Origin: Acidobacteriota bacterium
GTDB lineage: Bacteria > Acidobacteriota > Thermoanaerobaculia > Multivoradales > JAHEKO01
NCBI GenBank assembly: GCA_022561975.1
Contig: JADFQD010000005.1
Coordinates: forward strand, 1-57,351
DNA: 57,351 nt
Reading direction: 5' to 3'
In this document: positions 103 through 46,273 of the stretch, in pieces
Layout of the letters: each line of letters begins with the position of its first letter
Position numbering within the stretch: the first letter of the stretch is position 1
Notes under the pieces: model-generated
The model's input: only the letters and a program-made list of their open reading frames with translations
Database searches by the model: none
What the model was told of the DNA's origin: nothing
Program-made: the position numbers and the translations under genes

Positions 103-1842
103 CTAAACCGCGGCCAGCTCATCTTCGAGCTGCTGACGGCGCGCGAGATCGGCGTAGACACCGCCTTGGCGGATCAGCTCGCCGTGACCTCCGCGCTCGA
201 CGATGCGGCCGCGGTCGAGCACGATGATCTGATCCGCCGCGCGCACCGCCGAGATCCGATGCGAAACCACAAAAACGGTCCTGCCCAGAAACACCCGCCT
301 GAGGTTGCGCAGAATCCTCTCCTCGGTGTCGGCATCGACCGCGGAGAGACAGTCGTCAAGGAGCAAAATCCGAGGCTCTCGAATCAGCGCTCGCGCCAGG
401 GCGACGCGCTGTTTCTGGCCACCCGAAAGGGTTATACCCCGCTCCCCGACCACGGTTTCGAGTCCCCTCGGAAAGGACTCGAGATCTGCCGACAGGCCCG
501 CGACCTCGGCCGCTCGCTCGATTGCACTCCGCTCGGGCTGGAAGGCCCCAAACGCGATGTTCTCGGCAATCGTCGTCGAGAACAGAAACGCCTCCTGCGG
601 AACCACGGCGATCGCCGCGCGGAGAGAGTGCAAGGGCAGCGAGCGCACATCCAGCTCGTCGATGAACACGCTCTCAGCCGGCGGGTCCAGCAATCGGGGG
701 ATCAGTGACAACAGCGTGCTCTTACCGCTTCCGGTGCGCCCGACAAGGCCGAGAGTCTCTCCGGCGGCCACGGTCAGATCGATCCCCTCGAGAGCCGGAT
801 CAGCGCTTTCGGGGTAGCTGAAGTCCAAGCCGGTCACGCGGACCGCGCCGCTGACCTCGCCGACCGCTGCCCCGGAGCCATCGCGTATCTCGGGCTCGGT
901 TTCTTTGATTTCCTCGATCCGGCGCAGAGATGCCGTTCCACGCTGCACCAGGTTGACCACCCAGCCGACCGCAATCATCGGCCAAACCAGCTTGGAGAGG
1001 AAGAAGTTGAAACTCACGAACTCGCCGACAGTGATCTCGCCCTTCGAGACCAAAGTGCCGCCGAACCACAGCATCGCGACGAAGCCGAGCCCGGTCAGCA
1101 GCTGGAGCAGTGGACGAAACGCGGCCGACCACCGGATCAGCCGGTTGTTGCGACGGACGTACTCCGAGTTTGTCAGAGCGAACCTCTCGACCTCTGACCC
1201 CTCGCGGGCATGCGCCCGAACCACCCGCGCCCCGGTCACGCTCTCGTGAACCCGCGACGAGAGCGCCGAGAACTGCTCCTGAACCTGACCGAAGAGACCA
1301 TGGATTCTGTGGCCAAGAAACTGGGTGACCAATGCGATCAGCGGCATCATCGCGAGCGAGAGAAAGGTGAGTTGCCAGTGGATCCTTGCCATGAAGAAGA
1401 GGGCGCCGGACGCGGTGAGCACTGTGCTCGTCGAGTACATGATCGCCGGGCCGCAGAGCTGGCGCACGGCCTCGAGATCGTTGGTCGCCCTCGCCATCAG
1501 GTCGCCGGTGTGGTGCCGCTGATAGAACGCCAGCGGCATCCTCTCGAGATGCTCGAAGTACTCATTGCGGAGGTCGTACTCGATCTGCCGGCTCACCGAG
1601 ACCAGAATCAGCCGCTGGCCGAAGCTGAAGACGCCTTGGACCGCCGTCACCGCGACCAGCAATAGGCCATAGATCAGCAGAGTCGCTGACGAAGCCTGCC
1701 CAACCAAGGCGTCGACCGCGCGGCCCACGATCAAGGGGCCAAAAAGCCCGGCAAGGACCGCGGCCGCGATGCAGGCAATGCCCCCGAGAAGCTGTAGCGA
1801 ATAGGGGCGAAAGTAGGGACCCAGCCGGCGCAGTGCTTTCAT
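103..1842 (-). CDS. ABC transporter, fused permease/ATP-binding protein (MsbA/LmrA-type exporter)
   Basis: MKALRRLGPYFRPYS start inside the longer ORF; N-terminal TM region, Walker A GRTGSGKST, signature LSGGQKQR, Walker B ILLLDDCLSAVD. Confidence 0.9.
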   Translation of the reverse strand: MKALRRLGPYFRPYSLQLLGGIACIAAAVLAGLFGPLIVGRAVDALVGQASSATLLIYGLLLVAVTAVQGVFSFGQRLILVSVSRQIEYDLRNEYFEHLERMPLAFYQRHHTGDLMARATNDLEAVRQLCGPAIMYSTSTVLTASGALFFMARIHWQLTFLSLAMMPLIALVTQFLGHRIHGLFGQVQEQFSALSSRVHESVTGARVVRAHAREGSEVERFALTNSEYVRRNNRLIRWSAAFRPLLQLLTGLGFVAMLWFGGTLVSKGEITVGEFVSFNFFLSKLVWPMIAVGWVVNLVQRGTASLRRIEEIKETEPEIRDGSGAAVGEVSGAVRVTGLDFSYPESADPALEGIDLTVAAGETLGLVGRTGSGKSTLLSLIPRLLDPPAESVFIDELDVRSLPLHSLRAAIAVVPQEAFLFSTTIAENIAFGAFQPERSAIERAAEVAGLSADLESFPRGLETVVGERGITLSGGQKQRVALARALIREPRILLLDDCLSAVDADTEERILRNLRRVFLGRTVFVVSHRISAVRAADQIIVLDRGRIVERGGHGELIRQGGVYADLARRQQLEDELAAV

Positions 1843-2612
1843 CCGTCGCTCTTCACTATCCGCGACACCGACTCGGGCGGCTCGGGCGGCTTCGTGGTAG
1901 CAGCCACGACGCCACGACCGCCGAGAGGATGAAACAGGTTCTCGCACGACGCGACTCGGGCCTCGAAGCGCAAGATCTCCCGACCTTCCCGGTGGTACTT
2001 GTCCTCGTAGTGGGTTCTTGCCCGCCCTCCCCAGAGGTCTGCGGCGGTCTCGACTTTCAAAGCCGGGTGCGCTCGCAGCAACTCGCCCACCAGCTTTCCG
2101 TAGTCGAGGAAATCGGTCGCGAAGCTGAGCACCCCGCCCGGATGCAACAGACGCAGCACAAGATCCAGCGACTCGGGATCGAAGAGTCGCCGCTCGTGGT
2201 GACGGCTCTTGGGCCAAGGATCCGGAAAGTAAACGTGAACCGACCGCGCGAAGGAAGCGGGCAGTACGGCGGCCAGGAGATAGCGCGCCTCTCCGCGCAG
2301 GAGCACGAGGTTGTCCAAATGATCGCCCGCGGCCCGGTCTCGGACGTGGCGATAGTACTTCGACACCACTTCGATCCCCAGAAAGCCACACGCCGGATTG
2401 GCCCGTGCCTGCTCGAGTAGGAACCTCCCCTTGCCGAAGCCGATCTCGACCTCCCAGTCACGCACGGGCTCGGTCACCTGAGCCAGCAGATCGGGTAGCT
2501 CGAGCGGAACATCCAGCTCCGCCAGTAGCTGCTCGCGGCCGGCGACGGCAATTCGGACGGGAAGCACTCGCTCGATCCGGCTACAGGAGGTCCTCGGACT
2601 CACCGCGAGCAA
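1839..2612 (-). CDS. trmB: tRNA (guanine-N7-)-methyltransferase
   Basis: EIGFGKGRFLLEQA SAM motif and VHVYFPDPWPKSRHHERRL TrmB motif. Confidence 0.9.
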   Translation of the reverse strand: MLAVSPRTSCSRIERVLPVRIAVAGREQLLAELDVPLELPDLLAQVTEPVRDWEVEIGFGKGRFLLEQARANPACGFLGIEVVSKYYRHVRDRAAGDHLDNLVLLRGEARYLLAAVLPASFARSVHVYFPDPWPKSRHHERRLFDPESLDLVLRLLHPGGVLSFATDFLDYGKLVGELLRAHPALKVETAADLWGGRARTHYEDKYHREGREILRFEARVASCENLFHPLGGRGVVAATTKPPEPPESVSRIVKSDG

Positions 2613-3636
2613 GAAGATCGACTAGTTCCTTGATTTTTTCAGTCTGTTCTTTCGAGACCACGAGCACCACATCGCCGGTGCGAATTACCACCAAGCCCGA
2701 AACTCCGACCGCCGCGATCGTGCCTTCGTCCGCCAGCAAGAGGTTGTCGCGAGCATCCAAGGTCACGACCCGCCCACGGGTGGCATTGCCGGCGGAGTCG
2801 GCCTCCATGATCTCGGCCAGGGCTGCCCACGAGCCCAGATCGCTCCATTCACAGTCGAGCGGAAGCGTGGCCAGGTCTCGGCACTTCTCCATCACGGCAA
2901 AGTCGATCGAAATCTTCGGCAGCCGGCCATAGTTACGATCCAAATCACCCGGCTGCTCCCGAATCTTCGCCAGCCCGTCGCTGAGCTCCGGCTCATGCTC
3001 GGAGATCAGCTCCAGGAGGCGCCCGCCGCGAAAAACGAAAATCCCAGCATTCCAAAGATGGTTGCCACTCTCGAGATAGCGCTCCGCCGTCTCGAGATCG
3101 GGCTTCTCCTTGAACGCCGCAACGCGCCTGACGCCGAGGTTCGCGTCCTCTACCTCGCCCAACTCGAGGTAGCCGAATCCCGGCTCCGCCCAGCGCGGCA
3201 AGACCCCGAGCGTCATGACCCGATCCCGAGTTCGCACGAACTCCGCGGCCAAGGAAAGTGTGGCTCGAAAACTCGATTCGTCCCGAACCCGGTGATCGGC
3301 GGGAAGTACCGCGACGACGTCGTCTCGCGCTTCCATCCGATCCAATGACCACGCGATCGCGGGCGCGGTGTCCCGGCCTTCGGGCTCGGCCAGAATCTGA
3401 TCGGTCGGCACCTCGGGCAGCTGTTCGCTCACCTGCTCGGCGAGTGCACGAGTCGTGCACACCCAAATATCGGCGGACGCGACCAGCGGCTCGAGACGGC
3501 GCACGGTGCGAGCCAACAGGCTCTCGTCGCCGTCCAGGACCAGCAACTGCTTCGGGCGCCGGGCTCGACTCAGCGGCCAGAAACGAGTGCCGCTTCCTCC
3601 CGCGAGGATCAAGGCCTTGAGGACGGGTTCGCTCAT
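2581..3636 (-). CDS. manC: Mannose-1-phosphate guanylyltransferase
   Basis: LILAGGSGTRFWPLSR nucleotidyltransferase motif; FKEKPD, WNAGIFVFR, SIDFAVMEK motifs. Start taken at MSEPVLKALIL (3636). Confidence 0.88.
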   Translation of the reverse strand: MSEPVLKALILAGGSGTRFWPLSRARRPKQLLVLDGDESLLARTVRRLEPLVASADIWVCTTRALAEQVSEQLPEVPTDQILAEPEGRDTAPAIAWSLDRMEARDDVVAVLPADHRVRDESSFRATLSLAAEFVRTRDRVMTLGVLPRWAEPGFGYLELGEVEDANLGVRRVAAFKEKPDLETAERYLESGNHLWNAGIFVFRGGRLLELISEHEPELSDGLAKIREQPGDLDRNYGRLPKISIDFAVMEKCRDLATLPLDCEWSDLGSWAALAEIMEADSAGNATRGRVVTLDARDNLLLADEGTIAAVGVSGLVVIRTGDVVLVVSKEQTEKIKELVDLLARGESEDLL

Positions 3637-4514
3637 GGGGCGCAGCTGCGGGTCTCGGGCAGTGCTGCCAACCTGCGGCTCACGCAGCCCTCGAGAATCC
3701 GATCCGCTGGAATGCCGCGCAGGCGGAGTCTGGGCGCCTCCAACAGATCCGATGCCAGCGCCAACAGTGCCCGGCGGTTGCTCTGACTCGGCTGCGAGTT
3801 GGCGTAGTCGAGAACTGCGGCGGCCGCATGCTCCCACGGAGCTCGCGCGCGCGCATCGTCCCATTGCCCGGACGCCTTGAGGGCCCCGGCGGCAGCCAGC
3901 AGCTCCCCCGAATGGCGGCATTGGAGATAGCTTTCCAGCGCGCGCCCAAAGCCCTCCGCTGTTTTCATCAGCTCCGTTCCTCGAGGCCGCGGGCCGGTGC
4001 CGAGAAAGAGCGCCAAGGAGCGGCTCCGCAAGGTCGGCAGGAGGTCGAATTGGGACGGTGCGAGCAGAAAGAAATGCCGCGAGGTCTTGCCGGGCGGTTC
4101 CTCGAGAACTTTGAGCAAGGCGTTGGCCGCCTCGCCGCTGAGGGTCTCCGCGCTGGCGATCACGAACACCTGGCCGCAGGCCTCGAACGGCGTGACCTGA
4201 GCGCTACGAAGAAGTGCCTTGGTCGCATCCACCGAAGTCACGGTTTTCAGATCGCGCTCGAGGACAAGGAAATCCGGATGAAAGGCATCGCTTTTCCTGT
4301 CCGGCCAGACGATCCTCTTGCAGTGCCGACACTTGCCGCAGGGACGCCGGGAGGCTTCGACGGCTTCGACGGTTTCGGGGCCAGCGTCGCACAACAGGCA
4401 CCTGGCAAGTGTCAGCACCGCTTCGCGCCGGGTTTCCTCTGTACCGCCATGCAGGATCAAGGACGGATAGAGCCGGCCGATCCGGGCGAGGCCGAGCGTC
4501 GCCTCGAGATTCAT
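3633..4514 (-). CDS. holB: DNA polymerase III subunit delta'
   Basis: Zn-type CGKCRHCKRI, ALLKVLEEPP; adjacent to tmk. Confidence 0.85.
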   Translation of the reverse strand: MNLEATLGLARIGRLYPSLILHGGTEETRREAVLTLARCLLCDAGPETVEAVEASRRPCGKCRHCKRIVWPDRKSDAFHPDFLVLERDLKTVTSVDATKALLRSAQVTPFEACGQVFVIASAETLSGEAANALLKVLEEPPGKTSRHFFLLAPSQFDLLPTLRSRSLALFLGTGPRPRGTELMKTAEGFGRALESYLQCRHSGELLAAAGALKASGQWDDARARAPWEHAAAAVLDYANSQPSQSNRRALLALASDLLEAPRLRLRGIPADRILEGCVSRRLAALPETRSCAP

Positions 4515-5218
4515 CCGCCGGCTCCGCTGGCTCCGCTGGATCCCGCGGCTTCTATGAACTCTTCCAAAACGTCCGCCAACGCATTACGAACCTGGACTTC
4601 GGTCTCGAGCTCCGAGCCGCTCGAGTCGATCATCCTGAATCGATCCGGCTCCCGAGCGGCAGCTTCCAGATAGCCTTGACGCACTCTCGAATAGAACGCC
4701 AGATCTTCCGCGTCCAGACGGTCGACTCCACCCGGCTTCGTCTGCCGGACCTGTCCCTGCCCGCGCTCCCGAGCCAACTCGGGGGGGAGGTCGAACAGAA
4801 GCGTCCGGTCGGGCACTCGCTCGCCGGTCGCGAGCGCGTCGGCGCTGCGAAGCAGCTCGAGGGGCACACCGCGTCCGAAGCCTTGATAGGCAAATGTCGA
4901 ATCCGTGAAGCGGTCACAGAGAACCACGGTGCCACGAGCAATCGCCGGCTCGATAACTTCGAGCAGATGCTGCCTGCGACTGGCAAACACCATCAGGGTC
5001 TCGACGGTGCCGTCCAGCGCACCCCTGCTGGGATCCAAAAACAACGACCGAATGGCGTCACCGAGCGGAGTTCCTCCAGGCTCGTGGGTAGCAAGTACCG
5101 ATGCTCCCACCTCTTCGAACCACCCTCGTGCGGTGCTCAGATGAGTCGATTTGCCGCTGCCATCCAAGCCTTCGAAGGTCACAAAGCGAGTCGTCACGCT
5201 GGAAAACATAGCACGCAC
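4511..5218 (-). CDS. tmk: Thymidylate kinase
   Basis: FVTFEGLDGSGKSTHL P-loop, DRFTDSTFAYQGFGRG motif. Confidence 0.92.
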   Translation of the reverse strand: MRAMFSSVTTRFVTFEGLDGSGKSTHLSTARGWFEEVGASVLATHEPGGTPLGDAIRSLFLDPSRGALDGTVETLMVFASRRQHLLEVIEPAIARGTVVLCDRFTDSTFAYQGFGRGVPLELLRSADALATGERVPDRTLLFDLPPELARERGQGQVRQTKPGGVDRLDAEDLAFYSRVRQGYLEAAAREPDRFRMIDSSGSELETEVQVRNALADVLEEFIEAAGSSGASGAGG

Positions 5219-5309
5219 GATCCACCCGTTTTAGATGTCGGCCGGGCCCCTGCCTGGGTGGGTTGACAGAGTGGTCCAGTTTGATGAGGATTCGTTCGGA
5301 ATCCCAACA

Positions 5310-6443
5310 ATGAAGTTTCTCATCCCGCTAGAGCGCCACCCTGCCGAGCGGCGGGTCGCGGCAACTCCCGAGACCATCAAGCGTCTTCTGGAACGGGGGC
5401 ACTCCGCCGTGGTCGAGTCGGGCGCCGGTAAGGCCGCGTCGTTTCCCGACTCGGCGATGAGAGAAGCTGGAGCGGAGATCGTCCAGGAGATCTCCTGGTC
5501 GGGCACCGAGGCATTACTCAGAGTCGGGCCCCTGACATCGGATGATGTCGACAAGCTACCGGAAGGGTGCCTGGTCATCGGCCTCCTCGATCCCTACATG
5601 CATCTCGAAGCGGTCGCGCGTCTGGCCGAACGACGGGTGACGTCGTTCGCTCTCGAACTGCTGCCCCGGATTACGCGCGCGCAAACCATGGACGCGCTCT
5701 CCTCCCAAGCCTCGATCGGCGGCTACAAGGCCGTGGTGCTTGCGGCCACCAAGCTCGGGCGATATTTTCCGCTGCTCATGACCGCGGCCGGAACCGTGCC
5801 ACCGGCGAAGGTCGTGATCATCGGCGCGGGTGTTGCCGGCCTGCAAGCGCTCGCGACCGCGAAGCGCTTGGGGGCCGTGGTCGAGGTGTCGGACATCCGG
5901 CCGGCGGTCAAAGAGCAGGTCGAGTCACTGGGCGGCAGGTACATCGAAGCCCCTCAAACCGAGGCCGCCGAAGACCAAGGCGGCTACGCCAAAGAAATGG
6001 ACGAGGACTTCCTGGCCCGCCAGCGGGCACGTCTCGCCAAGCATATCGCGGCCGCCGACGTGGTCATCACGACCGCTCAGGTGCCAGGCAGGCCGGCACC
6101 CAGAATCGTCAGCCGCGAAATGATCGAGGGCATGAAGCCCGGATCGGTGGTCATCGATTTGGCGGCCCCCAGCGGCGGCAACTGCGAATTGACCCGAAGC
6201 GGCGAAGATGTGGTTCACAACGACGTGCTGATTCTCGGACCTGCGAATCTGCCTGCCACCATGGCTCACGATGCCAGCACACTCTACGCTCGAAACGTTC
6301 TTGCTCTGATCGAGCACATTGCGCCCGAGGGTAGGCTGACCATCGACCCGGCGGACGACGTGCAGAGCGGCGCCCTGCTCACCCACGACGGCGAGGTCAT
6401 CAACCCGGCCGTGAAGAAGGCTTTGCTCGAGAGAGGAGACTAA
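5310..6443 (+). CDS. pntA: NAD(P) transhydrogenase alpha subunit, part 1
   Basis: MKFLIPLERHPAERRVAATPETIKRL; VVIIGAGVAGLQALATAKRLGAVVEVSDIRPAVKEQVESLGG. Confidence 0.92.
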   Translation: MKFLIPLERHPAERRVAATPETIKRLLERGHSAVVESGAGKAASFPDSAMREAGAEIVQEISWSGTEALLRVGPLTSDDVDKLPEGCLVIGLLDPYMHLEAVARLAERRVTSFALELLPRITRAQTMDALSSQASIGGYKAVVLAATKLGRYFPLLMTAAGTVPPAKVVIIGAGVAGLQALATAKRLGAVVEVSDIRPAVKEQVESLGGRYIEAPQTEAAEDQGGYAKEMDEDFLARQRARLAKHIAAADVVITTAQVPGRPAPRIVSREMIEGMKPGSVVIDLAAPSGGNCELTRSGEDVVHNDVLILGPANLPATMAHDASTLYARNVLALIEHIAPEGRLTIDPADDVQSGALLTHDGEVINPAVKKALLERGD

Positions 6444-6737
6444 ATGGGCGAATTACTGATCGGCCTCTACGTGTTCGTGCTCGCTATCTTCGTCGGGTTC
6501 GAGATCATCACCAAGATTCCACCGACGCTCCACACGCCGTTGATGTCCGGAGCCAACGCGATTTCCGGGATCACCGTGTTGGGAGCCCTGCAGGCCGCTC
6601 GGGCGGGCTCCACCGAGTTGTCGAGTCTGCTCGCATTCGGCGCCATTGTTCTCGCCTCCATCAACGTGGTCGGCGGCTTCCTGGTCACCGATCGCATGCT
6701 CGCCATGTTCAGCGGCAAGAAGAAGAAGAACAAGTGA
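6444..6737 (+). CDS. pntA2: NAD(P) transhydrogenase alpha subunit, membrane part 2
   Basis: Short TM protein with TPLMSGANAISGI between pntA1 and pntB. Confidence 0.9.
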   Translation: MGELLIGLYVFVLAIFVGFEIITKIPPTLHTPLMSGANAISGITVLGALQAARAGSTELSSLLAFGAIVLASINVVGGFLVTDRMLAMFSGKKKKNK

Positions 6738-8155
6738 GCGCCATGGTGTCCGCGAACGTCATTGCGCTGCTCTACCTGCTCTCGGCGGTGCTTTTCATCT
6801 TCGGCCTCAAGGGCCTGACGGGTATTCGTAGCGCGCGTCGAGGCAACGCTCTCGCCGCGCTCGCGATGCTGCTGGCAGGCATCACCACGCTGGTCGATAT
6901 CGGCAAGGCCGACTATCGTTGGATTGTAGCCGGACTCGTGATCGGCGGCGGCATTGGAGCCTACGTAGCGCTCAAGATCGCGATGACCGCCATGCCGGAG
7001 ATGGTGGCTCTTTTCAACGGATTCGGCGGCGGCGCCTCGGCACTGGTCGCACTCTCGGTCATCTCACTCGCGATTCTGGAGGGTGGCGAACCACTGGGCG
7101 CCTCGGCCTCGATCAGCGGTTTTGTTTCGGTGCTGATTGGCGGCATAACGCTCACCGGCAGTCTCGTGGCTTTCGCCAAGTTGAGCGGCAAGCTCGGCGG
7201 CGCCCCGATCATCCTGCCGGGAAGACACTGGATCAACGGGTTCTTGGTTCTGACCACACTTGGCGCTGCCATCTACTTCTTGCTCTCGTCCGGCGCCGAC
7301 GCCACCGCCCTGGTCACCAGCTTTCTGGTAGCGACCGCGTTGAGCCTGGCGCTCGGCGTGTTGCTGGTTATTCCGATCGGCGGCGCCGACATGCCGGTCG
7401 TGATCTCGCTGCTCAACTCTCTCTCCGGCCTCGCCGCCGCATCCACCGGCTTCGTGCTGTCGAACAATCTCTTGATCATCGGCGGCGCTCTGGTGGGCGC
7501 CTCCGGGCTCATCCTGACGCAGATCATGTGCGGCGCCATGAACCGGACTCTTCCCAACGTTCTGTTCGCGGGCTTCGGCGGTGTATCCGCAGCCAGCGAC
7601 AGCCGCGATTACCAGAACATCACGTCCTACGGGCCCGAGGAGGCGGCCATGGTCCTGGAGTCGGCGATGTCGGTCATCATCGTGCCCGGCTACGGTCTTG
7701 CCGTCGCCCAGGCGCAGCACGCGGCCAGAGAACTCGGCGATCTGCTCGAAGCGCGAGGCGCCAAGGTTGCCTACGCGATCCATCCAGTCGCCGGCCGGAT
7801 GCCGGGGCACATGAACGTCCTGCTCGCCGACGCGGACGTTCCCTACGAGAAGCTCTTTGAAATGTCCGCGATCAACTCCGAATTCAAAACTACGGACGTG
7901 GTCCTGGTCGTCGGCGCCAACGATGTGGTCAATCCCGCTGCCGAAACGGACCCCCAATCCCCGATCGCCGGCATGCCTATCCTCAAATGCTACGAAGCCC
8001 AAACGGTGTTGATGATCAAGCGCAGCCTCAGTCCAGGATTTGCCGGAATCAAGAACGCCCTGTTTGAGAACGACAACACGATGATGATTTTCGGCGACGC
8101 GAAGGTCGTCCTGCAAGGTCTCCTGGCCGAACTGAAAGAACTCGGCACCGCGTAG
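6734..8155 (+). CDS. pntB: NAD(P) transhydrogenase beta subunit
   Basis: Multi-TM N-terminus; VPGYGLAVAQAQH, IHPVAGRMPGHMNVLLADADVPYE, VVGANDVVNPAA domain III motifs. Confidence 0.93.
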   Translation: MSAMVSANVIALLYLLSAVLFIFGLKGLTGIRSARRGNALAALAMLLAGITTLVDIGKADYRWIVAGLVIGGGIGAYVALKIAMTAMPEMVALFNGFGGGASALVALSVISLAILEGGEPLGASASISGFVSVLIGGITLTGSLVAFAKLSGKLGGAPIILPGRHWINGFLVLTTLGAAIYFLLSSGADATALVTSFLVATALSLALGVLLVIPIGGADMPVVISLLNSLSGLAAASTGFVLSNNLLIIGGALVGASGLILTQIMCGAMNRTLPNVLFAGFGGVSAASDSRDYQNITSYGPEEAAMVLESAMSVIIVPGYGLAVAQAQHAARELGDLLEARGAKVAYAIHPVAGRMPGHMNVLLADADVPYEKLFEMSAINSEFKTTDVVLVVGANDVVNPAAETDPQSPIAGMPILKCYEAQTVLMIKRSLSPGFAGIKNALFENDNTMMIFGDAKVVLQGLLAELKELGTA

Positions 8156-15105: not shown

Positions 15106-16518
15106 ATGTCGAGCTACCGCATTCTCGTCATCGACGACGAGAACAGCCTTCGTGAGTTCCTGCGCATACTGCTGGAGGAGGAGGGCTACGCCGTCCGGGA
15201 AGCCGATTCGGTCGAAAGCGCTCGCTCGGTACTCGCCGAAGACTCTTTCGACCTGATTCTCTGCGACATCATGATGCCGGACGGCAACGGTCTCGACCTT
15301 CTCAAGGACATCAAGGCCTCCTCGGCAGCCGAAACGGCAGTCATCATGATGACCGCCTACAGCTCGACGAAATCAGCCATCGCCGCTATGAAGCTGGGAG
15401 CCTACGATTACGTACCCAAACCCTTCGACGTTGACGAACTCAAGGCGATCATCGAGAAGGCGGTCGAGCGCAATCAGCTCCTTGCCGAGAACGTCTACCT
15501 TCGAAAAGCGCTCGAGCAAAAGTACGGCTTCTCCAACATCATCGGGCGCAGCTCCCGAATGCAGGAGATCTTCTCCCTGATCGAGCGTGTCAGCCGCACC
15601 GCCTCGACCGTTCTAGTTCAAGGTGAGAGCGGCACCGGGAAAGAGCTGATCGCGCGCGCCATTCACTTCGCCAGCCCGCGATCGAAAGGTCGATTCCTGT
15701 CGATCAACTGCGGCGCTCTCCCCGAGCCCTTGCTCGAAAGTGAGCTCTTCGGCCACGAACGGGGTGCTTTCACAGGGGCCGTCAAGAAAAAGAAGGGACT
15801 CTTTCGAGAGGCCGACAACGGCACCATGTTCCTGGACGAAATCAGTGAGATGAGCACCTCCATGCAAGTCAAACTCCTGCGAGTGCTCCAGGAGAAAAAG
15901 GTGCGTTGCGTGGGAGGGCACGAGGAAGAGCCGGTGGACGTACGTATCATCGCGGCTACGAATCAGAATCTAGAAGCCCTGATTGAAGCAGGTGAATTCC
16001 GCGAAGATCTCTACTACAGAATCAACGTCATCCCGATCGAAATCCCTCCCCTGCGCCACCGCCGGGAAGACATCCCTCTACTGGCAGACTTCTTCATCAA
16101 GAAATACGCGGCCGAAATGGGAATCGCGACGCAGCGCGTCGAACAGGATGCGATGCAAGTGCTCGAGGCGTACCGTTGGCCCGGCAATGTGCGGGAGCTG
16201 GAGAACGTGATCGAACGGGCGCTGGCCTTGACCACCAGCGACTCGATCAGCATTCGAGACATTCCAGAGCATCTGCGAGGACCAGCCAGACGCAAAGACT
16301 CCTGGATAGAGCTACCGGCCGAAGGCATGGACCTGGAGGGTCACTTGGAAGATATTCGCCGGCACCTGATGTCCCAATCATTGGATCGGAGCGGCGGCGT
16401 GCAAACCAAAGCCGCGGAGCTGCTCGGAATCAGCTTCCGTTCGTTCCGGTATTACTCGAAGAAGGTCGGGCTTACCGCCAGCGAAGTGGCTGAAGAAGCC
16501 GTAGTCATCGAAAACTAG
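15106..16518 (+). CDS. pilR: Sigma-54-dependent response regulator
   Basis: Receiver domain DDENSLREFL; GESGTGKELIARAIH, ESELFGHERGAFTGA; C-terminal Fis-type HTH. Confidence 0.92.
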   Translation: MSSYRILVIDDENSLREFLRILLEEEGYAVREADSVESARSVLAEDSFDLILCDIMMPDGNGLDLLKDIKASSAAETAVIMMTAYSSTKSAIAAMKLGAYDYVPKPFDVDELKAIIEKAVERNQLLAENVYLRKALEQKYGFSNIIGRSSRMQEIFSLIERVSRTASTVLVQGESGTGKELIARAIHFASPRSKGRFLSINCGALPEPLLESELFGHERGAFTGAVKKKKGLFREADNGTMFLDEISEMSTSMQVKLLRVLQEKKVRCVGGHEEEPVDVRIIAATNQNLEALIEAGEFREDLYYRINVIPIEIPPLRHRREDIPLLADFFIKKYAAEMGIATQRVEQDAMQVLEAYRWPGNVRELENVIERALALTTSDSISIRDIPEHLRGPARRKDSWIELPAEGMDLEGHLEDIRRHLMSQSLDRSGGVQTKAAELLGISFRSFRYYSKKVGLTASEVAEEAVVIEN

Positions 16519-40470: not shown

Positions 40471-43400
40471 TCAGTTGGGCACGGTGGGGGCGCTGCTGCT
40501 GCTGCGATACCGCAAGAGCCTACTCTGGATACCTGCAGCCAGCACATCGTCACTACGGGCCCTCGCGCTATCGAGAGCTTCTCGAGCCGTAGCGATTGCG
40601 TCGGTGGGCCGTCCCGCGGCGGCGTAGGCGGCCGCGAGGGTATCCAGGGCTACGGGGTGGCGGTCCTCGCTCAGAGCGACCGCCCGCTCGGCAAAGCGAA
40701 CCGCCTCGGCCGCTCGCTGCGCGTTGGGCTCCGGGTGGCCGATAAGGATCCAGGCCATGGGAATCAGGGGCGCCGGCCAATCGGGTCGCAGACTCTGCGC
40801 TATTGCAAGATGCCGCAACGCCTCGTCCAATCGGCCCGCCGTTCTCAGGGTGACCCCAAGACCGTGTTGGGCCTCGGCGTCAGCAGGGTCGATTTCCACC
40901 GCCCGACGATAGTGGTCGATCGCCGCCTCCGGCTCGCTCGATCTAAGGACAGCCGCCAATGTCGCGTGGGCTCGTCCCAGGTCCTCCTCGAGATCGATTG
41001 CCCGCCGCAACTGGACGATCGCTTCTTCCCGCCGGTCTTGCTTTAATACGGCGTTGGCCAGGCTCAGACGTAGACCGGCCTCCTGTTCCGAGCGCCGGCG
41101 GACTCTCTCCGGCGTCATAGGCTCTGCGTTCCGAGCGGCAAGCCGATCGAGCGCCAACCGCAAGTACCGTTCCGCGTCCTCAGGGAAACGCACGCCGAAC
41201 CTCTTGGCCAGCGACTCCAGGTCTGGGCCCGGCAGCGGAGCAATCCAGCGGCCGGGTAGAGGGGCCGAGGCCGCTTGCAGACGCACGCGAGATTCGCCCA
41301 GACTTTTCAGGTCGAGCAGCAGGCGATCGACATCGGTGCGGCCGCGGTAGGTGGCCGCCAGCTCACCCGCGCCATCCAGTAGCAAGCTCGCCGGAACGGC
41401 GAACGGCAGACTCCGTTCGAAGAGAGTCTCCTGAAGCAGCTCAATCTTCTCCAGCAGCTCGGGAGTCGCGTAGCCCGCCGGGAACGGAAACTCGAGCTCT
41501 TCGAGCAGGCGATTCGCGTCGGCCGGCTTGGTGATCTGGTCACGATCGAGACCGTCGACGGAAAGCGCGAGAATGCCAAGTCCGGTGGCGCGAAGCTCCT
41601 CGGCGCGCTCGGAAAACTCTCTGAGTTCGGCGACACACGGCACGCACCAACTGGCCCACAAGTTGATCAACAGGGGCCCGCTACCGGTCTCGACAGCTCG
41701 CGGGCCTACGGCGTCCAGCGGTTTGTAGAGAAGCCGCGGTAGTGGGACTCGTACGGGAAGCAGCACGCGTTCCGTGGTGTCGGGTGCCGGGGGTACCGCG
41801 GGTGCCTCCGGCTCGCCCGGTTCCCCTGGCTCCACCGACGAAGCTTGGGGGGCGGACGCGAGCGCCCTCTGTGGTCGCGGCTCGCGTGCAGTCACTGCCA
41901 CTGCTGCGCCGGTGCCCTCGACGAGGAGGTATCTTCCCCCGGGCCGAACGCCCGCGAAGGTCTCACGTTTCCCGCCGGGCCAGCGGACCGTGACCCGCTT
42001 GATCACGGGTGCAGTACCCAGACCGAAGTGCAACCACTTGCTCGATTGAGACAGGAAGGCGTCACCGGCGTAAATCGTTCGCACCAGCCTCGAGCCGAGA
42101 GCCGACCCCATCGTATGGGGATCGGGGGCGAGTTCGACCTCGGCCCGAGCACCGATCGCGTCGCGGTTCGATCTGGTGCCACGAAGTCGCAAGGCGACGA
42201 AGCTGTTCTTGCTCTCGCCCTGATTCAACATCAGCCGCAACCTGGGAGCCGTCCGGTTGGCAAGCCACAGGTCGAGGTCGCCATCGCCGTCCCAGTCAAC
42301 CACCGCCAGACCTCGTCCGTCGTCGGGAAAGTCCAGACCCGAGACTGCCGAGACGTCGGCGAAGCGTAGGTCGCCGGTGTTTAGGCCACCGGTGTTGAGA
42401 CCACCGGTGTTGAGACCACTGATGTTGAGAAAGACGCAGTTGCGCTCGGTACCGCTCCAGGACTTTCCCTGTCGCAGCAGGCGCAGCGTCGCCTGCCAGC
42501 CGGCGACATAGTCGGCCGGCGAGCGACCGGTGCCGAGAGCTTGTGGCGAGCGCGACACGACCTGTCGCCAGAAGAAGCTTCACAAATCGCCGGTGTCGTC
42601 ATTCGACAGGTAGCCGTTGGCCACGACCAGATCCTGCCAGCCGTCGTTGTTCAAATCGGCGAAGCGTGAGGACCAGGCCCAGCGGCCCATGGCGACGCCG
42701 GCGGCTTCGCTCAGATCGCGGAAGCTGCCGGTGCCTTCATTGGCGAAGAAAGTGTTGCCTCGCGCCATGCGCTGGAGGTCCGATGCGGCGTTGCCGGTGG
42801 CGTCCACGAACGCTCGTTGATAGGCGACGCGGTTACCTGCCGCCGAGTACATGTTGCCGATGTAGATATCCATCCAGCCATTGCGGTCAGGGTCTCCCCA
42901 TGCCACGGACATACCCGAAGCCACATCCTCGACACCCGCCTCGGCGGCGACGTCGTCGAAGTGTCCGCCGCTGTTGCGGTAAAGGTTGTTTCGACCGAAG
43001 TCGTTGGCAACGTAGAGATCCATGTCTCCATCGTTGTCGTAGTCCTCCCAGGCGGCGGCGAAGCTGTAGCGAGTGTTGTTGGCGTCGAGCCCGGTCCGAG
43101 TGGTTACGTCCACGAACTCGAAACCACCGCGGTTCTCGAGCAGAGCGTTGGCGCCGCCGTTGTTGGCATCGTGGTACGGAACCGGGCCCGGCAATCCTTG
43201 GTGCTCCGCCTCGCCATCGTAGCCACACACATATATGTCCAGATCGCCGTCGCCGTCGTAGTCAGCGGCGGCCAGCGAGGTCGCGCTCGCCACTACATTG
43301 CGCATCGGTTTGTGCAGTGTGAAACGGCCGCTGCCGTCGTTCTCCGCGAGCAACAGCATCCGGCGCGTCACGGCGACCAGATCTTGATCACCGTCGTTGT

Positions 43401-44493
43401 CGAGATCGATCAGGAGCGCCGAAGAAGTGGATTCGAGCCAGTCGACACGGGCAGAGGCCGAGACCTCGGTCGCGGTTCCATCCGGGTTTTGCACGTAGAG
43501 GCGATTGGGGAGGCCACCGGCGTCCGCGACATAGAGATCCTCCAGGCCGTCGCCGTTGACGTCTCCGATCGCCAGGCCATGATGGCCAAAGAGGGAGACG
43601 CCCGAGAGCCGACTGATTCGACCCAGCCAGTGTCCTATGCCTGGAAGCACCTGTTGGCGGTAGGCGGCGTTGCGACCGAGCGTGTACTCTGTGGCGTCGG
43701 TGAAGATTGTGCGTTGCCGAACCGAGACTTCCTCGTAGCGCTCAAGGGCGATCGCCAGTAGCTGTGGCGGCTTCCCGTCGTCGGGATAGGTCCACCGACA
43801 GAGCCACGATGCGTTCCACTGGGAGCTGTTGCCGGCGGAGCGACTGCTGGCCTGGACCAAGACCCGAGTGCTGAAAAACGAGTCCGAGGTCTCGATTTGG
43901 TAGGCTTTCAATGCCGCTCGAATGTCCGATCCTCCCGGCAGGCCATCTTGTAACTGCCGAAGCGCATCGACGAGTCCGGGGGCCCCGAGGTGATCGGGAG
44001 TCGAGGCTGTCGATTCGGCCGGGCCGGCCGATCCGATCGGGCCAGCCGACGTTGACGGCTCTGTCCAACGCCGTACAACCCAAAGGTCGTCGGCGAAGAC
44101 TGTGTCGAGTTCCTCGACAGGCCGCAGTGTCTGGCTTACGAAGCTGTCCGCGATGAGGCCCGACGCGTGCTCTATGACCGGCGACTCCCGGCTTTCGATC
44201 AGTCCCCTCAGAATTTCGAGCTGTAAGGCGGTCGATTCGGCCAACGATTCGGTATCCCAGATGTCGTTCTTGGGGTCTACCTTCTCGGCCAGCCTCTCGG
44301 TCGGCGACCTCGGTCCCTGCCGAAGGGGCATGGGAACAGTCTGGGCGGCGCCGAGGGACGGCGGAAACGCGCTGGGCCTGGTGCTCGATTGACGATCAGG
44401 GTCCGCGCCGCAGGCGCTCAGGAGCACGGTGCCGGAGAGCAGGAGGATCCGAATCGATGGGGCCCGATTGCTTGCAGCCCGTCGCGCGACCAT
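40471..44493 (-). CDS. Candidate 1340-aa selenoprotein: lipoprotein with FG-GAP/ASPIC-UnbV, redoxin (CVPC) and TPR domains, interrupted by one in-frame UGA
   Basis: ORFs 42580-44493 (..YLSNDDTGDL*) and 40471-42558 are in the same frame; between them the frame reads U-SFFWRQV. Downstream: ADYVAGWQATLRLLRQGKSWSGTERNCVFLN..DGDGDLDLWLANRTAPRLRLM, INLWASWCVPCVAEL, TPRs. Confidence 0.75.
42552..42568 (-). promoter_or_regulatory. Bacterial SECIS-like hairpin GCGACA-GGUCG-UGUCGC
   Basis: Perfect 6-bp stem; loop preceded by A gives AGGUCG, close to fdhF AGGUCU; loop starts 17 nt after the UGA. Confidence 0.6.
42580..42582 (-). other. In-frame UGA, candidate selenocysteine codon
   Basis: TCA on + strand; flanked on both sides by continuous same-family coding sequence. 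Confidence 0.65.
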
Positions 44494-44524: not shown

Positions 44525-46273
44525 TCATCCGCTGCCCGCGTCAACACTTTGCGAGACGAAGGAGGCGGCGGTTCCGTATTCATCCTGGATTCCGACGCCG
44601 ACGATATGTCTTCCGCGTCGCAGTAGCAGGCTCGCTTCGTAGGCGTAGTGTTTGTTCTGGGCAGTCTCGAAGTCCTGTGTCGGGATCTCAATCGAGATTT
44701 GATCCTGCTGTACTTCGGCGATGCCACCCCTTTCGTCCATCGCGGTGAAGTAGATTCTCACACGGCCCTGGTAGAGGGTCCCGCGAGGGACCAGCACGAT
44801 CTTCTTGAGTGGAATCTGAATCAGGAAGGGTGCGGCGAAGTTGTCCTGGTGGACGCTCGGTTCACCGACGCTGAGGCGGACATCGAGCGGGTTGACCTGA
44901 TAGCCGTGGCGCAGGCTCGAGACCGTCCTCTCGCTCATCCGCTGGGACAAGGACTTGTCTCGATACCCGGCGCGATGGCGTACGTTAAAGCGCTTCTCGA
45001 GCGTCTTGACCTCGACTTCGTGAAAGCGTCCGTCGCCCGCGCCTGAAGGGGAATAACCCAGAGAATAGTAGTTCTTGAAATCGGACGCGACACGATCGAG
45101 ACCTCGTCCGATATCGTTGGTGTTGACGATCGCGGTGCCGCCGGTACGCTCCGCGATGAACTGAATGGAACTCTGCAAATTGGACAGGTTGAGTGAATCC
45201 GCGAACGCTCCGCCTCCGTCGATACTGCTTGCCCTGGCGTTCTCAGCGTCACCCGCGGTCAGGGATTGAAGCCCGGAGGCGTCGATGGTGTAGAAGGTGA
45301 CGCCAGCGGCGTTTGCCTGGTTGGCCAGTTCCTTGAACTGGCGCGTGGCGTCGAAGTCCTGAGACTCGAGCACGGCGGACATGTACTGGAATTTCTGCCG
45401 GATCACGAAAAACAGGTCCCTGGCGGGCACCATCGGCAGGCCGTCGCTGGCGTAGAGAAGTGCCTTGCGGCCAGGCAGCCCCGAGAGCGATTGGACCGTG
45501 TCCCTCATTGCGGCGAGAGTGAAACGAAGGTCGTTCGCGACGGACGACGCATGCTGTCGCGTACGCAACATCACACCTTCGGGCGAGTCGGCGTTGTCGA
45601 TGGCCCTCAAAATGTCGCGGCGTTCCCTGTTGGCCTGAAGCCTGAAGCCGGTGAGTTTTTCGAGTTCATTCAGGGTCGCGGCGATCAGTCTGGGGTTATC
45701 GGTAAAACGATGGCGGATGTTGAGCGTGCGATCGTAGGAAACCAGCATGACGCGATCGCTGCGTTCGAGTTGGAGTAGGAACTCACGCAGTCGGTTGAAC
45801 ACGCGATTCCTGTGAAACGGTTCGATGTTGAAGTTGTCGATGTAGACAACGAGGTGCAGGCGTTGAGCCTCGGGGACTTCTTGGAGGGGAATGAGCGGCC
45901 GTCTGCGATCCGGCGCCTGTGCGATCTCGCCCTCCGTTTCCGGCCGGTCCGACTTGATCGCCCTGACCGGGCGGCCGTCGGCGACCGCGGAGAAGTTGGT
46001 GATGAGTACGCGCCGGCCATCCTCGTAGACCTCGAAGTCCTCTCGCACGAGGCCTGATACCGGGTTGCCCTTCTTGTCGGTGACAAAGACCTCGATATTG
46101 ACGACGTTGACGTCTACGACTTCGAAGAAAGGACTCTCCACTTCCTGCGCCGCCAGGGCGGAACCCAACAGCAGCGCAACCGCCAGTCCGGGAATAACGC
46201 GGCTTCGTCGGATCACGGTTGGGTTCTCGAAATCAGCCGGAACGCGGCACGAGCGTCCGGAGGAGAGTGTCAT
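44525..46273 (-). CDS. VWFA-related domain secreted protein
   Basis: VDVNVVNIEVFVTDKKGNPVSGLVREDFEVYEDGR; LHLVVYIDNFNIEP; SLSGLPGRKALLYASDGLPMVP. Confidence 0.88.
   Translation of the reverse strand: MTLSSGRSCRVPADFENPTVIRRSRVIPGLAVALLLGSALAAQEVESPFFEVVDVNVVNIEVFVTDKKGNPVSGLVREDFEVYEDGRRVLITNFSAVADGRPVRAIKSDRPETEGEIAQAPDRRRPLIPLQEVPEAQRLHLVVYIDNFNIEPFHRNRVFNRLREFLLQLERSDRVMLVSYDRTLNIRHRFTDNPRLIAATLNELEKLTGFRLQANRERRDILRAIDNADSPEGVMLRTRQHASSVANDLRFTLAAMRDTVQSLSGLPGRKALLYASDGLPMVPARDLFFVIRQKFQYMSAVLESQDFDATRQFKELANQANAAGVTFYTIDASGLQSLTAGDAENARASSIDGGGAFADSLNLSNLQSSIQFIAERTGGTAIVNTNDIGRGLDRVASDFKNYYSLGYSPSGAGDGRFHEVEVKTLEKRFNVRHRAGYRDKSLSQRMSERTVSSLRHGYQVNPLDVRLSVGEPSVHQDNFAAPFLIQIPLKKIVLVPRGTLYQGRVRIYFTAMDERGGIAEVQQDQISIEIPTQDFETAQNKHYAYEASLLLRRGRHIVGVGIQDEYGTAASFVSQSVDAGSG

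Follow-up and report, generated by a model that had tools for sequence, protein, structure and literature searches.

The window, the whole 57,351-nucleotide stretch of Acidobacteriota DNA considered here, carries a long gene on the minus strand (positions 40471–44493; 1340 codons) that meets an in-frame UGA at codon 638 (42580–42582) and ends at a second UGA (40473–40471). The locus raises the question of whether the internal codon is a stop or is read as selenocysteine (Sec) and, if Sec is inserted, what this residue would do in the protein. The open frame continues past the internal UGA, and that frame is conserved in homologs, in which UGA sites were located by tblastn with TGA read through. 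Read as Sec, the codon lies in the context NDDTGDL-U-SFFWRQVVSRSP, and it occupies the same aligned column as the UGA of the UGA-bearing homologs. The 637 codons preceding it (42583–44493) encode the N-terminal region and most of the FG-GAP blades. Following it are a UnbV_ASPIC domain identified by Pfam (PF07593; residues 779–855, 41929–42159), a TlpA/ResA-like thioredoxin domain recognized from domain and fold matches (residues 939–1045, 41359–41679) with a CxxC motif (WASWCVPC, cysteines 950 and 953, 41635–41646), and a TPR region assigned from domain matches (about residues 1129–1310, 40564–41109). Pfam scores for the protein are 137.5 bits for PF13517 and 60.1 bits for PF07593, both above the cut-off. 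The N-terminus, judged by eye, resembles a lipoprotein signal (LLLSGTVLLSACG), and the gene product is an exported, probably lipid-anchored, CRTAC1-like beta-propeller composed of FG-GAP and UnbV_ASPIC parts. The adjoining upstream gene on the same strand (44525–46273) encodes 582 amino acids and gives no Pfam match at 1e-5. Past the Sec region, the window gene also contains an in-frame tandem repeat (GLNTGGLNTGGLNTG, about 15 nt repeated three times, 42380–42425) that is absent from aligned close homologs.

The first-pass annotation had pointed to a SECIS-like hairpin, a perfect 6-bp stem with the loop GGUCG, 3′ of the in-frame UGA, and the minus-strand sequence bears this out: read directly, the RNA runs UGA, AGCUUCUUCUG, GCGACA, GGUCG, UGUCGC. 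A spacer of 11 nt (42569–42579) separates the UGA from the hairpin (42552–42568), whose arms lie at 42568–42563 and 42557–42552 and whose loop lies at 42562–42558. The spacing of 17 nt that had been given also holds, counted from the UGA to the loop, with the stem itself starting 11 nt after the UGA. Folding with RNAfold returns exactly the hairpin that had been noted. The published bSECIS model (PMC13188914, Fig. 2) describes a loop of 3–9 nt on an upper stem of 4–16 bp, a G within the first two loop positions (usually G[G/U]), a distance of 16–37 nt from UGA to loop, and a minimum free energy of –7.5 kcal/mol or lower. The window hairpin lies within all four limits, with a 5-nt loop on a 6-bp stem, the loop sequence GGUCG, the 17-nt distance, and a folding energy of –9.5 kcal/mol. 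As in the E. coli fdhF bSECIS, the hairpin is found directly past the UGA within the coding region and presents a small loop with GGU at the 17-nt spacing; in contrast to fdhF, whose stem has a bulged U, the window stem is a perfect 6 bp under the loop GGUCG, with neither a bulged U nor a conserved lower stem. The Rfam SECIS covariance models give no match to the window hairpin at E ≤ 10; bSECIS elements are said to show little sequence conservation (PMC13188914), so the missing match has no bearing on function. An outer helix between AGCUU (42579–42575) and AAGCU (42542–42538), spanning 42538–42579, had also been suggested. The two complementary segments are indeed present in the window, but only 4 of 116 UGA copies can form the helix in this register, and the 18 of 116 that can form it at any downstream position do not exceed the background expectation of 19.0 ± 2.9; we judge it a chance pairing outside the element.

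Given the encoded peptide and the codon usage of the family, a perfect stem would be expected by chance at the window site with a frequency of ~3%, so that the single sequence is only suggestive and the evidence from the family is decisive. In total, 117 distinct UGA-bearing stretches were collected, nearly all from the two subfamilies termed A and B below, and hairpin statistics were derived from the 99 copies whose first 36 nt are distinct and free of ambiguity. The complete six-pair stem is formed by 85.9% of these copies, compared to a mean of 3.6% (maximum 10.1%) upon synonymous codon resampling from the same genes, and to only 0–1% when the 3′ arm is slid by 1–3 nt. In the fourth pair, an Arg wobble base is matched with position one of a Ser, Pro or Ala codon 10 nt later; this pair occurs as A-U (34 copies), G-U (39), C-G (14), and G-C (9), and is thus paired in 96 of the 99 copies, where 20,000 shuffles reach a mean of 69 and a maximum of 82. 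The stem is likewise preserved in L062, where two pairs have changed (GAGGCA/UGCCUC), and in L055, where the closing pair has changed (GCGACG/CGUCGC). In every one of the 99 copies the loop opens with GGU or CGU. Conversely, homologs with the same peptide and no UGA form all six pairs in only 1 of 11 cases. The loop valine codon is GTC in 94 of the 99 UGA copies, many of which come from a DNA pattern search in which parts of the 5′ arm were fixed and this valine was limited to GTC or GTG, with columns 25–31 unrestricted, versus 2 of the 11 non-UGA homologs; copies from the protein search alone are like the rest (GTC in 21/25, all six pairs in 20/25). The covariance check that had been proposed, of homologs with UGA against those without it, therefore reveals compensatory changes in the former and loss of the hairpin in the latter, although the Cys homologs envisaged as the comparison set proved rare, with the non-Sec homologs carrying mostly Gly, Ser, Asn, Ala, Asp, Gln, or Glu. 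The idea that the hairpin simply follows from conservation of the peptide SFFWRQVV, with the UGA a premature stop, arising from a pseudogene or a sequencing error, draws on the conservation of WRQVV in non-UGA homologs too, whereby the protein fixes part of the RNA, but we judge it refuted, with a negligible chance of being correct, by the scarcity of perfect stems in peptide-preserving resampling and in non-UGA homologs with the same peptide, and by the recurrence of the same UGA with an open frame beyond it across three phyla, in over 100 distinct copies.

The genomic context is that of a Sec-decoding organism: the source genome (3.66 Mb in 215 contigs, 87% complete) encodes a tRNA-Sec with anticodon UCA, SelA, SelB, and SelD. 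Among 297 genomes of the phylum, SelA is present in 36 of the 37 with a listed UGA copy and in 161 of the 260 others (Fisher p = 3e-6), and the lone UGA carrier in which it is missing (G311) is a genome only 72% complete. For genomes with subfamily A, the corresponding counts are 16/17 with UGA and 5/13 without UGA. A SelA match was also obtained for 21 of 25 UGA carriers from the Planctomycetota and Verrucomicrobiota (20 over the cut-off); in G343 the match runs into a contig end, and the remaining carriers, which gave none (G350, G353, G356, and G358), all possess tRNA-Sec. Three Verrucomicrobiota for which only non-UGA homologs are listed gave no tRNA-Sec match. These observations weigh on a reading in which UGA is decoded in frame as some other residue, via a change of the code to Trp or near-cognate readthrough, with the hairpin acting as a readthrough stimulator, as hairpins can in other systems. 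This we consider highly improbable: the same gene terminates at UGA, which shows that the codon has not been reassigned; the genome encodes tRNA-Sec, SelA, SelB, and SelD, which are found together with UGA copies; the loop and its spacing fit the bSECIS model; and Trp is found at the Sec column only in distant homologs. The SECIS reading is thus upheld by the bSECIS constraints, the covariation, the loss of the hairpin in non-UGA homologs, and the Sec machinery of the genome, and on this comparative sequence evidence Sec insertion at the window UGA is very probably directed by this element. SelB carrying Sec-tRNA-Sec would bind the hairpin loop, and the ribosome would then insert Sec rather than terminate.

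At least four subfamilies, distributed across the Acidobacteriota, Planctomycetota, and Verrucomicrobiota, share the UGA at this single column of the alignment. Subfamily A (DL-U-SFFWRQVV) possesses both thioredoxin and TPR parts, and subfamily B (DT-U-S.FWR[QH]V) a thioredoxin domain; subfamily C (DL-U-LPYI.SAVAHI) is without a thioredoxin domain and in some cases forms a tandem pair; and subfamily D (DG-U-[ST]C.WR) is characterized by a U-x-C motif, no fused thioredoxin domain, and a 7-bp hairpin. The hairpin of subfamily D covaries (GGGCUGU/ACAGCCC, GGGCCGU/ACGGCCC, and GGGUUGC/GCAACCC). For subfamily C, RNAfold does not always pick the GCGC-GGUC-GCGC hairpin, and the SECIS assignment is accordingly less secure there. 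The source genome has one copy of subfamily A and one of subfamily D; the latter (L308, contig C49, match 15353–16402) reads DG-U-SCVWR and carries its own 7-bp hairpin. A strict DNA pattern run across 45 genomes matched 13 times in G350 (Planctomycetales HKST-UBA30), where 2 of the 13 copies begin a contig and could be incomplete, and 10 times in G348 and 8 times in G344 (Roseibacillus ANT-131 and ALOHA_ZT_59, respectively); the reversed pattern gave zero matches across 45 genomes. With 8–13 copies of one family per genome bearing both UGA and hairpin, this is a large selenoprotein expansion for bacteria.

To place the Sec residue in the protein, we turn to a structure model of residues 276–1066 (mean pLDDT 80.6, pTM 0.71), for which Foldseek returns CRTAC1 (9etn) as the best match (E 1.6e-24, TM 0.70 by target length), followed by TlpA/ResA. 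The window protein shares the propeller and ASPIC fold with CRTAC1 (PDB 9etn) and bacterial UnbV_ASPIC proteins (PF07593/PF13517), but differs in possessing an insertion that contains the Sec helix, and fused thioredoxin and TPR domains. The model positions Sec at the first turn of a predicted helix (362–373, model numbering) within this propeller insertion; reactive Cys or Sec residues are often found at helix starts. The C-terminal domain with WCxxC is akin to the TlpA/ResA/DsbE oxidoreductases, except that here the thioredoxin domain is a fused partner. Sec falls in the propeller and not in a thioredoxin motif, in contrast to the listed thioredoxin-type selenoproteins. Genes neighbouring several homologs (sulfatase, arylsulfotransferase, cytochrome c, VWA, epimerase, and others) include none that is recurrent and give no hint of a substrate.

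The residues that replace Sec, and the fate of the CxxC motif, provide an opportunity to evaluate its role. Close non-UGA homologs have Gly, Ser, Asn, Ala, Asp, or Gln at the Sec column, and Glu is found in those resembling subfamily C; Cys is confined to a distant group (L088, L160, L278, and L280). This pattern departs from the usual Cys/Sec replacement, and would be odd if the residue were simply the equivalent of a catalytic thiol. The two CxxC cysteines are kept in 98/99 and 96/99 UGA copies, compared to only 1/12 (first cysteine) and 7/12 non-UGA homologs of subfamily A. Outside that set, the non-Sec homolog L274 (Glu, B-like) lacks the thioredoxin domain and its CxxC, and L081 (Gln) is without a CxxC motif. 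Because the CxxC decays where Sec is lost, we propose that Sec works as a redox centre and that the fused thioredoxin domain recycles it, an assignment of chemistry by inference that we hold to be reasonably probable. As the reactive residue, Sec would act on a substrate outside the cytoplasm and, after each turnover, be reduced by the CxxC of the fused domain, comparable to thioredoxin-fused reductases. The U-[ST]-C motif in a subfamily without a thioredoxin domain counts in favour of Sec chemistry. Against the relay, (i) the non-UGA clade of subfamily A is nested among Sec proteins, such that the joint loss of Sec and CxxC there is essentially one event, (ii) L075 keeps its UGA yet is without CxxC, and (iii) subfamily C has Sec without a thioredoxin domain.

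The variety of residues tolerated at the Sec column might instead indicate that Sec, once inserted, is not catalytic, and that the site serves mainly as a selenium-responsive switch for the second half of the protein; the UGA is midway in the gene, and termination there would remove the ASPIC, thioredoxin, and TPR parts. We regard such a switch as improbable, insofar as Sec is retained while paralogs diverge widely, its loss accompanies CxxC decay, subfamily D adds a U-x-C motif, and the model places Sec at a helix start. A better-surviving alternative, although still an unlikely one, is that Sec acts as a ligand for a metal or cofactor in the propeller and not as a redox centre of the thiol type. 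Some homologs have Glu, Asp, Asn, Gln, or Cys in its place, as would befit a ligand, but Gly, Ser, and Ala occur there too, and a fused thioredoxin domain with a CxxC that follows Sec speaks for thiol-type chemistry.

Neither the SECIS nor the Sec pathway is new in kind; what is apparently undescribed is the protein family. No FG-GAP, VCBS, or UnbV_ASPIC entry is found in the 2026 inventory of 119 prokaryotic selenoprotein families (PMC13188914, Table 1), and the family is absent from NCBIfam 20.0, in which the window protein gives only TPR and thioredoxin matches below the cut-off. A search for literature on FG-GAP, UnbV, ASPIC, or CRTAC selenoproteins returned nothing relevant, and no description of Sec in the CRTAC1/UnbV_ASPIC family was found in the searchable literature; with preprints and most subscription papers outside the search, priority is unproven. 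The TonB-dependent receptor of FCYXU type and the Tso proteins (PMC13188914, Table 1) are likewise selenoproteins found by computation, but differ in fold. Returning to the redox-centre reading, the locus would represent an undescribed CRTAC1-like selenoprotein superfamily of at least four subfamilies in three phyla, with up to about 13 paralogs per genome, in which Sec, borne on a scaffold without a fixed Cys counterpart, would act as a redox centre outside the cytoplasm and be recycled by a thioredoxin domain of the same chain, a composite interpretation in which we place moderate confidence.

A large, apparently unlisted family of exported selenoproteins, whose Sec-bearing beta-propeller is in most cases joined to a thioredoxin-like domain, is thereby added for the Acidobacteriota, Planctomycetota, and Verrucomicrobiota, and at 8–13 copies in some genomes it may dominate their selenoproteomes. 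Since Cys is rare in the non-Sec homologs, searches that depend on Cys/Sec pairs would miss the family, which suggests that further such selenoprotein families remain hidden; standard annotation, moreover, breaks its proteins at the UGA into two pieces. We found no biochemical role described for bacterial CRTAC1/ASPIC propellers, which now become testable redox proteins. In L074 (about 1564–7050), two subfamily C UGA genes are arranged in tandem, each with a GCGC-GGUC-GCGC hairpin, and adjacent copies also occur within the CRTAC1-like arrays of other genomes. Two subfamily B UGA genes lie near selA, at a distance of about 1 kb for L303 (G060) and about 4 kb for L298 (G089), hinting at linkage with Sec genes.
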